From the NCBI GenBank assembly GCA_001602415.1, contig CP012155.1, positions 2,288,223 to 2,352,222 on the forward strand: a stretch of DNA of 64,000 nt. The letters run 5' to 3'. The notes beneath the pieces are model-generated. The model ran no database searches. It saw only the letters and a program-made list of their open reading frames with translations, and was not told where the DNA came from. A program made the translations under genes and the position numbers. Positions 39,532 through 63,057 of the stretch are shown here, piece after piece (position 1 is the stretch's first letter; each line of letters begins with the position of its first letter). The DNA is from Bacteroidetes bacterium UKL13-3 (lineage in GTDB: Bacteria; Bacteroidota; Bacteroidia; UKL13-3).

Positions 39532-39591
39532 TCGTTTACAGCTATTTACCAATTATTTTCAACCTGATTGTGAGGAGATTTTTTACTTTTT

Positions 39592-39621
39592 TTGTGTTTT
39601 ATAAAAAAAGGCATACATTTG
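39592..39621 (+). promoter_or_regulatory. Consensus promoter driving the repeat array and tRNA-Leu(UAG)
   Basis: TTG (39592-39594), exactly 19 nt, TACATTTG (39614-39621): full match to the Bacteroidota consensus. The first 99-bp unit starts 11 bases after the -7 box, about where a tRNA 5' end would be expected. The intact tRNA starts 704 nt downstream. Confidence 0.8.
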
Positions 39622-39632
39622 CCGTCCCTTAA

Positions 39633-40325
39633 GCGCATGTGGCGTAATTGGTTCCCGATAGCTATCGGGAGTGCCAAACTTAGGATAACCAATTTATCCT
39701 ATTTATTCGCTACCTGCAATGAGAAAATAATGCGCATGTGGCGTAATTGGTTCCCGATAGCTATCGGGAGTGCCAAACTTAGGATAACCAATTTATCCTA
39801 TTTATTCGCTACCTGCAATGAGAAAATAATGCGCATGTGGCGTAATTGGTTCCCGATAGCTATCGGGAGTGCCAAACTTAGGATAACCAATTTATCCTAT
39901 TTATTCGCTACCTGCAATGAGAAAATAATGCGCATGTGGCGTAATTGGTTCCCGATAGCTATCGGGAGTGCCAAACTTAGGATAACCAATTTATCCTATT
40001 TATTCGCTACCTGCAATGAGAAAATAATGCGCATGTGGCGTAATTGGTTCCCGATAGCTATCGGGAGTGCCAAACTTAGGATAACCAATTTATCCTATTT
40101 ATTCGCTACCTGCAATGAGAAAATAATGCGCATGTGGCGTAATTGGTTCCCGATAGCTATCGGGAGTGCCAAACTTAGGATAACCAATTTATCCTATTTA
40201 TTCGCTACCTGCAATGAGAAAATAATGCGCATGTGGCGTAATTGGTTCCCGATAGCTATCGGGAGTGCCAAACTTAGGATAACCAATTTATCCTATTTAT
40301 TCGCTACCTGCAATGAGAAAATAAT
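39633..40325 (+). repeat. Seven identical 99-bp tandem repeats built on a tRNA-Leu 5' part
   Basis: Units start at 39633, 39732, 39831, 39930, 40029, 40128 and 40227; I see no difference between copies. In each unit, bases 1-20 equal bases 1-20 of the tRNA that follows. Bases 21-38 are the palindrome TCCCGATAGCTATCGGGA. Bases 39-54 equal tRNA bases 25-40 with one mismatch, including the TAG anticodon. Bases 50-68 form a second hairpin (AGGATAA/TTATCCT), and bases 69-99 are AT-rich filler without tRNA similarity. No unit has a T arm or 3' acceptor strand, so none can be a tRNA. Because 99 is divisible by three, one frame stays open throughout as a 33-residue repeat, but nothing suggests it is translated. 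Confidence 0.95.
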
Positions 40326-40407
40326 GCGCATGTGGCGTAATTGGTAGCCGTGCCAGACTTAGGATCTGGTGCCGAAAGGCGTGGGGGTTCGAGTCCCTCC
40401 ATGCGCA
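40326..40407 (+). tRNA. tRNA-Leu (anticodon UAG)
   Basis: 82 nt. Acceptor GCGCATG pairs with CATGCGC, discriminator A. D arm GGCGTAATTGGTAGCC, anticodon stem CCAGA/TCTGG with loop CTTAGGA (anticodon TAG), variable arm TGCCGAAAGGCG, and T arm with GGTTCGAGTCC. Intact and probably functional. It is reached by the promoter at 39592 only after the 693-nt array. Confidence 0.95.
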
Positions 40408-40422
40408 CTTAATGTAAAACAA

Positions 40423-40455
40423 AAAATAAGACTGATTCGTCAGTCTTATTTTATT
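40423..40455 (+). terminator. Terminator between tRNA-Leu(UAG) and tig
   Basis: A 13-bp stem (AAAATAAGACTGA with TCAGTCTTATTTT) closed by a stable TTCG tetraloop, followed by T-rich DNA. The trigger factor ATG is only 18 nt beyond, so the tig promoter must overlap the tRNA or its terminator, or tig depends on read-through. Confidence 0.85.
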
Positions 40456-40473
40456 TTAAAGCAAAACAGAACA

Positions 40474-61770: not shown

Positions 61771-63057
61771 TTAGTTCTTATCTCTGTTGGAGCGGCCAAC
61801 GTAGCTCATTACACAGCGGAAACCTGTGTATGAATTTGCACTATCTTGGTACTCATACGTTCTGGTACCACAATTAATAAAGTGCGCGATGTCTTTCCAG
61901 GAACCTCCACGGATAACCTTACGTTTTAATGTTTCAGGTTCATCTGCTTTTGCATCATATTGATAATCCGGATTCAAATCATGTGAGAACATGTTACCCG
62001 ACTCTGCATAAGCAGAAATAGTCCATTCGGCAACATTACCAGCCATATCATACAAACCAAAATCGTTAGGGAAATACGATGAAACTTTTACGGGATACAA
62101 ACCTCCATCTTGCATGTAATCTCCACGCATTGGCTTAAAGTTAGCCAAAGAGCACCCTTTAGCATTTTTCACATAAGGACCGCCCCAAGGATACATATTC
62201 AAATCTCTACCTCCACGAGCAGCATATTCCCACTCATACTCTGTTGGCAAACGAAAATCGGTAACGGTACTTTCTTCCATATCGTTGTAGAACGAATTAA
62301 GGTAAATTGTTCTCCAACGGCAAAATGCTTTTGCTTGATTCCAATTAACACCCACTACTGGATAGTCGTCATATTTCGGATGCCAGAAATAAACTTGGGT
62401 CATTGGCTCGTTGTATGAATACGTGAAATCACGCATAAAAACAAGAGTGTCTGGGTAAATCTTCTCCTCTTCAACCGTCTTGTATTTACCTCTGTTAGTG
62501 GCATAACCATTTTTTCGGTGTAAACGTGAAGCAGAGCGTAAGTCAATATTTTCGTATTTGTAGATCAACTTTCTAACGTCAATCTGCTTCATTCTATAAT
62601 ATGTTTCTTCTTGGTTATAGTATAATTCTTTTATGGCCTCGTTACCGGCAACATCTTCAGGTAGAATTTTAGCTTCATAATTCAAGAAATGTTCACCTGT
62701 TTCATCGTCTGTAATCCAATACGTTTCAGGGTTTTGTTCGCCTAATCGCTCTCTGACCATTGAATCCAATACGTTTTGAACAAATTGGCGGTATTCATTA
62801 TTGGTAATCTCTGTCTCGTCCATATAGAACGCCACAATTGATACCTGTTTGTTAGGTGAAACTTGGGCCATAGGCACATCTTGCTCGTTAGCTCCAATGT
62901 GGATGGAACCAGTAGGTATATAAATGGTACCGTAAGGCTGAGGGTGAAACCATTGTGGTCGGCCCTGAACTCCTGTTAACTCACCTTTATCTCCAGTTGA
63001 ACAAGCAACAATTGAGCCCGCTACTAAGAAGAGTAAAATCAAACGAATACTTTTCAT
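61771..63057 (-). CDS. gldK: Gliding motility/T9SS lipoprotein GldK
   Basis: 428 residues. Lipobox AGSIVAC, then an FGE-sulfatase-like fold (PTGSIHIGANEQDVPMAQVS, FYMDETEITNNEYRQFVQNV, YPVVGVNWNQAKAFCRWRTI, LPTEYEWEYAARGGRDLNMY, GLYDMAGNVAEWTISAYAES, RKVIRGGSWKDIAHFI, YTGFRCVMSYVGRS). GldK with GldN forms the outer-membrane-associated ring of the T9SS. It is transcribed from a full-consensus promoter just upstream. Confidence 0.96.
   Translation of the reverse strand: MKSIRLILLFLVAGSIVACSTGDKGELTGVQGRPQWFHPQPYGTIYIPTGSIHIGANEQDVPMAQVSPNKQVSIVAFYMDETEITNNEYRQFVQNVLDSMVRERLGEQNPETYWITDDETGEHFLNYEAKILPEDVAGNEAIKELYYNQEETYYRMKQIDVRKLIYKYENIDLRSASRLHRKNGYATNRGKYKTVEEEKIYPDTLVFMRDFTYSYNEPMTQVYFWHPKYDDYPVVGVNWNQAKAFCRWRTIYLNSFYNDMEESTVTDFRLPTEYEWEYAARGGRDLNMYPWGGPYVKNAKGCSLANFKPMRGDYMQDGGLYPVKVSSYFPNDFGLYDMAGNVAEWTISAYAESGNMFSHDLNPDYQYDAKADEPETLKRKVIRGGSWKDIAHFINCGTRTYEYQDSANSYTGFRCVMSYVGRSNRDKN

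Follow-up and report, generated by a model that had tools for sequence, protein, structure and literature searches.

What are seven defective copies of a tRNA gene doing in front of the real one? In the genome of Bacteroidetes bacterium UKL13-3—a single 3,236,529-bp contig, 99.96% complete—seven 99-bp units lie at 39633–40325 of the window, preceded by a Bacteroidota promoter and followed by the sole tRNA-Leu(UAG) gene of the genome. (The window is the whole stretch of 64,000 nucleotides that was analysed, 2288223–2352222 of the contig.) The initial annotation offered three origins: expansion by slippage, a tRNA-derived regulatory RNA, or a decoy for enzymes that process or target tRNAs. We lean toward a fourth, which sequence comparisons lead us to regard as somewhat likelier than the rest taken together: that the array belongs, as a tandemly amplified form without a nuclease, to a family of selfish palindrome repeats nested in tRNA genes. 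The family is widespread and apparently undescribed; for the array as such, a selfish or neutral nature is probable.

Anatomy of the array

The features of the locus, all on the + strand, are as follows.

39591..39621, +: Bacteroidota-type promoter TTTG-N19-TACATTTG of tRNA-Leu(UAG), read in the sequence; box kept in most relatives
39633..40325, +: seven 99-bp units in tandem, all identical, from sequence, repeat finding and pairwise comparison
39633..39731, +: unit 1, beginning at the expected tRNA start
39732, 39831, 39930, 40029, 40128, 40227, +: starts of units 2–7
39633..39652 (unit 1; every 99 bp), +: exact copy of tRNA-Leu(UAG) bases 1–20, from sequence
39653..39670 (unit 1; every 99 bp), +: palindrome TCCCGATAGCTATCGGGA, 18 bp, replacing D-loop bases 21–24, from sequence
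39671..39686 (unit 1; repeated), +: copy of tRNA bases 25–40 with one mismatch, from sequence
39682..39700 (unit 1; repeated), +: second hairpin AGGATAACCAATTTATCCT, from sequence and folding; a diverged version stands at the same locus in genome G075
40326..40408, +: intact tRNA-Leu(UAG), sole genome copy, found by ARAGORN and Rfam
40423..40456, +: TTCG-loop hairpin and T-run, a likely terminator, read in the sequence; stem flagged by folding

Tandem Repeats Finder reports a period of 99, 7.2 copies and a 100% match over 39633–40345, and all seven units are pairwise identical, just as the initial annotation had it. Its promoter is there as well: TTTG at 39591–39594, a 19-nt spacer and TACATTTG at 39614–39621, a −7 box kept in most relatives, with unit 1 beginning 11 nt further on. 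Its description of the unit needs one amendment, a G to A mismatch in the copy of bases 25–40 that falls in the anticodon stem; the unit then ends, as described, in a 45-nt AT-rich tail with the second hairpin. Exact partial copies of the tRNA are found from −693 to −99 relative to the tRNA, and ARAGORN and Rfam agree on one intact tRNA (55.2 bits), after which comes the likely UUCG terminator already recognized, its hairpin at 40423–40452.

The units themselves have no Rfam tRNA match, even at E ≤ 10, and do not pass as functional tRNA genes. To judge from the layout, transcription probably runs through them before it reaches the tRNA, because they lie on its 5′ side. The palindrome is no accident of composition, appearing in 0 of 100 shuffles of the window. 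An ORF of 251 aa (window 39592–40347) does run through the array, and exists because 99 = 3 × 33; we take it to be a by-product of unit length, not a gene. Comparison with integron attC sites by eye revealed no GTTRRRY core in the unit. Nor does the unit have a nuclease gene, which sets it apart from free-standing homing endonuclease elements with their intact GIY-YIG gene. What the locus does present is a loop-replaced partial copy of the adjoining tRNA beside the intact tRNA.

The same palindrome at other tRNA genes

The TCCCGATAGCTATCGGGA palindrome occurs dozens of times in this genome, and forms five tandem arrays. All five abut or overlap a tRNA gene:

tRNA-Leu(UAG): 99 bp × 7, 5′ side
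tRNA-Asn, 5′ side: 80 bp × 11
tRNA-Asn, 3′ side: 410 bp × 8, each unit encoding a GIY-YIG protein
tRNA-Leu(UAA): 63 bp × 13, after the tRNA
tRNA-Thr(GGU): 65 bp × 7, after the tRNA

A single palindrome unit accompanies tRNA-Thr(UGU), and most of the 35 tRNAs of the genome are without a palindrome-interrupted copy. The palindrome replaces the D-loop in the 5′-side arrays, and the T-loop in the 3′-side arrays. Dispersed copies distant from tRNAs are never arrayed; these single palindromes (L012–L036) often sit inside CTCAAATCTC / GAGATTTGAG repeats.

The tRNA-Asn gene is flanked on both sides (L011 2211–5543 and 5593–6493; G000:C1 about 170710–174990), by eight 410-bp GIY-YIG copies on one side, the eight nuclease genes being near-identical, and by eleven 80-bp copies on the other. 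Both arrays have diverged copies at the end distal to the tRNA and near-identical copies close to it. Because of this gradient, the sequences suggest that the arrays grow at the tRNA-proximal end. Only two of the five arrays show the polarity clearly, and the 99-bp array has no variation at all by which to judge it.

Empty sites and changes in copy number

In nearly all of about 30 relatives, a −7 box of the TACATTTG type lies 12–22 bp before tRNA-Leu(UAG) with nothing between. The array therefore sits inside a promoter-to-tRNA interval that is otherwise conserved, and most relatives, having no units at this tRNA, represent empty sites. Units are present in the sister species, G001, which has at least two, different in sequence, split in the D-loop and with the palindrome TCCCGCTGCGCGGGA, and in G075, whose unit is degenerate and shares the tail of the 99-bp unit. 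Units at one and the same tRNA thus differ in sequence between G000 (the genome studied here), G001 and G075.

At tRNA-Asn, the 5′ units number 11 in this genome versus one in the sister species, and the GIY-YIG genes eight versus one. The inference of recent expansion or homogenization, drawn originally from the identity of the 99-bp copies, gains support from this sibling array. The sister's 5′ unit is identical to ours in its tRNA-palindrome part and diverged in its spacer; no 3′ partial copy with a palindrome was found at its GIY-YIG gene. Among other relatives, several have nuclease genes or interrupted copies at tRNA-Asn, and others have none. The 99-mer, which the initial annotation had proposed to seek elsewhere, has one partial match (G022) and no full match in 39 other genomes. 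A D-loop tRNA-Leu pattern, likewise, occurs among 395 genomes in this one only; hence the exact variant is rare, but the family is not.

Architecture of the family

Across the family, the plan is an intact tRNA with a partial copy of it alongside, and in this partial copy a short palindrome takes the place of one or more loops—D, anticodon/variable, or T. Between the intact and the partial copy lies either a short spacer, as in the 99-bp array, or a single-domain GIY-YIG gene. About 28 loci supplied 37 palindrome-interrupted copies, and in these the palindrome occupies recurrent tRNA positions: about 57|62 in the T-loop (a label that includes two copies in the variable region), 13|18 or 21|25 in the D-loop, and 25|36, 30|44 or 36|47 in the anticodon/variable part. 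Some copies (L215, L223, L235) have two or three palindromes.

The palindrome has the ends TCYCG…CGRGA in 32 of the 37, a consensus that is partly circular because part of the set, many loci in all, was found with the palindrome pattern. The same ends occur at loci found independently of the pattern (L129, L136, L165, L190, L280, L285, L294). Exceptions include TCCGC…GCGGA, and L051, L054 and L215 contain other palindromes besides. A class-wide pattern matched in 43 of 395 genomes, against three matches in all for the reversed control; of 30 pattern loci examined, 12 proved to be no more than 1 kb from a tRNA, and seven satisfied a strict test for a partial copy. Other genomes, too, have short arrays that lack a nuclease gene, like the one at tRNA-Ala in L218.

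One lineage of GIY-YIG nucleases

Each of the eight 410-bp units at tRNA-Asn encodes a single-domain GIY-YIG protein of 94 aa. Three members of the lineage match PF01541 at 44–74 bits, and the nearest sequences in the PDB are UPF0213 proteins, followed by the SLX1 structure-specific nucleases. A profile built from four such proteins (A1; invariant residues Y6, Y17, R27, H31 and E63) matched 80 loci in 84,980 genomes. The genes of this lineage sit beside intact tRNAs, in most cases along with a palindrome-interrupted partial copy of the tRNA concerned. The hosts belong to Bacteroidota, Balneolota, Cloacimonadota, Fidelibacterota, Nitrospirota, Ignavibacteriota and Patescibacteria, with one Erysipelotrichaceae; outside Bacteroidota, this amounts to about six other phyla, each with a single genome and about one locus, and many of the relatives compared are MAGs.

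How close these genes are to tRNAs was counted over the 79 loci found by GIY-YIG protein only, one near-duplicate having been removed. Of 16 tRNAs, 15 are found less than or equal to 300 bp from the nuclease gene, in a zone that makes up 13% of the DNA (p = 5e-13). In eleven cases the nuclease gene has a same-strand tRNA upstream of it, and behind seven of these genes an exact piece of that upstream tRNA, 10 nt or longer, recurs downstream of the gene; mismatched tRNA–nuclease pairs yield 15 recurrences in 726 (2.1%). Downstream of the remaining four, no partial tRNA copy was detected.

The tRNA-linked nucleases also cluster in the tree (8 label changes versus 18.8 when shuffled; 0/500 shuffles). 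Five members of the main tRNA group carry no tRNA label, and all five show tRNA fragments with inserts, four with clear palindromes; four of the five lie near a contig end. Other small GIY-YIG genes, at 29 high-scoring family loci, are mostly not at tRNAs and fall in a different part of the tree. In IMG/VR, 18 relatives of the nuclease occur in viral contigs; only two of them have a tRNA as near as about 2 kb, and in neither case is it directly adjacent.

Other explanations

Could the array be there for the RNA it makes? Promoter-driven tRNA mimics might titrate enzymes that bind, process or cleave tRNAs, and copy number would then be selected. No terminator separates the units from the tRNA promoter upstream of them, they retain the anticodon stretch, and as RNA the 99-mer folds far better than its shuffles (z = −4.8), adopting a three-way shape that an acceptor-like stem closes; the conservation of the tRNA-palindrome part in the sister's tRNA-Asn unit, beside a diverged spacer, would fit as well. 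Yet the other units fold at z −0.5 to −2.5 only, the acceptor-like stem reaches a p of only about 0.03–0.04, and unit sequence varies between genomes at the same tRNA, as we have seen. No unit matches tRNA in Rfam, and the T-loop units have no anticodon. Because these units lack the anticodon and fold less distinctly, a regulatory or decoy RNA fails to explain the family, distinct as the fold of this particular unit is, and we consider it an unlikely account of the array.

Expansion by slippage or unequal crossing-over alone—a chance duplication with a dispersed, hairpin-prone palindrome, amplified without any nuclease—seems to us similarly doubtful. Palindromes and direct repeats are known hot spots, and the perfect identity of the copies and the nuclease-less arrays of other genomes are what such expansion would leave behind. 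But where this palindrome is dispersed at a distance from tRNAs it forms no arrays, the position within tRNA loops is precise and recurs in many genomes, and the association with one GIY-YIG lineage is tight. The recent expansion or homogenization proposed in the initial annotation is supported, then; but since several tRNAs of the genome have arrays, and the family has a nuclease-bearing form, neither slippage by itself nor a regulatory RNA specific to the locus is a complete account. Slippage may nonetheless serve as the amplification step within the nuclease model.

The dispersed palindromes and tandem arrays do resemble BIMEs, and the genome has Y1_Tnp proteins of the size of RAYT, the transposase that mobilizes REP repeats. 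The Y1 genes examined have other repeats, however, with no TCCCGATAGCTATCGGGA within about 1.5 kb, and REP repeats are not known to carry halves of tRNAs; we give this origin very little credence. RAYT/REP was rejected as the carrier of TCCCGATAGCTATCGGGA, eight of ten Y1_Tnp loci being without the palindrome within two mismatches. (RAYT-sized Y1 transposase genes at L269–L271 have different repeats of their own.) That the true copy number is lower, and the array an artefact of assembly, would surprise us greatly: identical repeats are hard to assemble, but the genome is a single contig, the sibling arrays hold variant copies in order, and homologous units occur in single copy in other genomes.

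A possible mechanism

Our preferred reading, a selfish repeat nested in a tRNA gene, takes its start from what is observed—the architecture, the specificity for tRNAs, the link to one nuclease lineage, the empty sites and the changes in copy number—and adds a process that is partly borrowed from analogy: GIY-YIG cutting and recombination probably create the units and restore the tRNA each time. The nuclease would be made in this genome from the eight-copy array at tRNA-Asn, and would cut in a tRNA loop or close to one. Recombinational repair from a copy of the element would then insert a unit carrying its own copy of the tRNA end, and the insertion would be tolerated because this copy restores an intact tRNA. 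The displaced end would remain, its loop capped by the palindrome, perhaps as a mark or a block. Renewed cutting, or recombination between the repeated stretches of tRNA, would add units beside the intact tRNA, and arrays built in this way would be polar and near-identical. For the nuclease-less 99-bp form, the nuclease is assumed to act in trans. All of this covers the tRNA-linked palindromes; the dispersed ones away from tRNAs fall outside it.

A wider proposal we would put at about an even chance: that these are a new class of minimal (60–400 bp) selfish elements in the tRNA genes of several bacterial phyla, which enter tRNA loops by means of a conserved hairpin and a structure-selective GIY-YIG nuclease and rebuild the tRNA as they do so, with nuclease-less tandem forms that include this array and possibly the rtT repeats of Escherichia coli. 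In the open-access literature we found no paper with the palindrome TCCCGATAGCTATCGGGA or with such elements. If the proposal is true, near-minimal mobile repeats exploit essential tRNA genes without killing them, and a widespread lineage of small GIY-YIG proteins acquires a role. Tandem repeats at bacterial tRNA genes would be accounted for, perhaps those of E. coli too, and array growth driven by a GIY-YIG nuclease, familiar so far from phage SegB, could be put to the test on bacterial chromosomes. Where an array separates an essential tRNA from its promoter, expression of the tRNA could also change with copy number.

Relation to known systems

Islands and prophages that integrate into tRNA genes by tyrosine integrases restore the tRNA that they enter with a carried copy of its end. 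The elements considered here are alike in that their tRNA-end copy would restore the tRNA, but they are only 60–400 bp in length, have at most one GIY-YIG gene, carry a palindrome in the displaced copy, and would insert in loops, on the 5′ side included. With REP/BIME repeats and RAYT they share short, dispersed and sometimes tandem palindromes; they differ in the tRNA-loop position, and their palindrome is unlinked to the Y1 genes examined in this genome.

Phage SegB, a free-standing GIY-YIG homing endonuclease of the T4/T6 tRNA region, is likewise tied to tRNA genes, and through recombination brings about tandem amplification of a tRNA segment, in cis and in trans (PMC13096335, PMC2988022). 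In phage T6, cutting by SegB followed by recombination gives rise to tandem tRNA-Tyr/segB repeats, in trans as well (PMC13096335). SegB is, however, a phage gene among tRNAs, and the papers cited describe neither palindrome-interrupted partial tRNA copies nor 60–400-bp units (PMC13096335, PMC2988022). The proteins of the repeat family are single-domain and nearest in the PDB to UPF0213 and SLX1, unlike SegB.

Downstream of tRNA-Tyr in the tyrTV region of E. coli MG1655 (L242, NC_000913.3:1285500–1288000) are tandem units in which a hairpin-rich insert divides the 3′ part of the tRNA within the T-loop (AAGGTTCGA … AATCCTTCCCCCACCACCA). These tandem repeats at tyrT/tyrV are known as rtT repeats and are long unexplained; one split tRNA-Tyr 3′ copy also lies between tyrT and tyrV. 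No open paper stating that rtT units are split in the T-loop was found. The insert is different, about 65 nt and without a simple TCYCG palindrome, and the features annotated in the 2.5 kb analysed include no GIY-YIG gene. The architecture is shared, by sequence, and the mechanism is possibly common to both. Tandem units bearing the 3′ end of the upstream tRNA, as in rtT, are what the Leu(UAA), Thr(GGU) and Asn 3′ arrays of our genome consist of; the 99-bp array is not of this type, being a 5′ version.

Three further loci deserve mention. In L039 (about 1100–1450; G000:C1 near 2559200), a tandem array of an unrelated palindrome, GGTGGTTGAGCGAAGTCGAAACCACC, adjoins a different GIY-YIG gene, away from tRNAs, and in L038 a GIY-YIG gene is flanked by GGTGCCTGAGC…GGTCGAAGGCACC hairpins; these two hint that the pairing of GIY-YIG genes with palindromes is broader than tRNA genes. 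In L243 (about 700–1050; G000:C1 near 62200–62500), tRNA-Arg(CCU) has a copy of its 5′ half directly upstream, closed by the inverted repeat CGGATAG…CTATCCG, and another partial copy 238 bp from its start.
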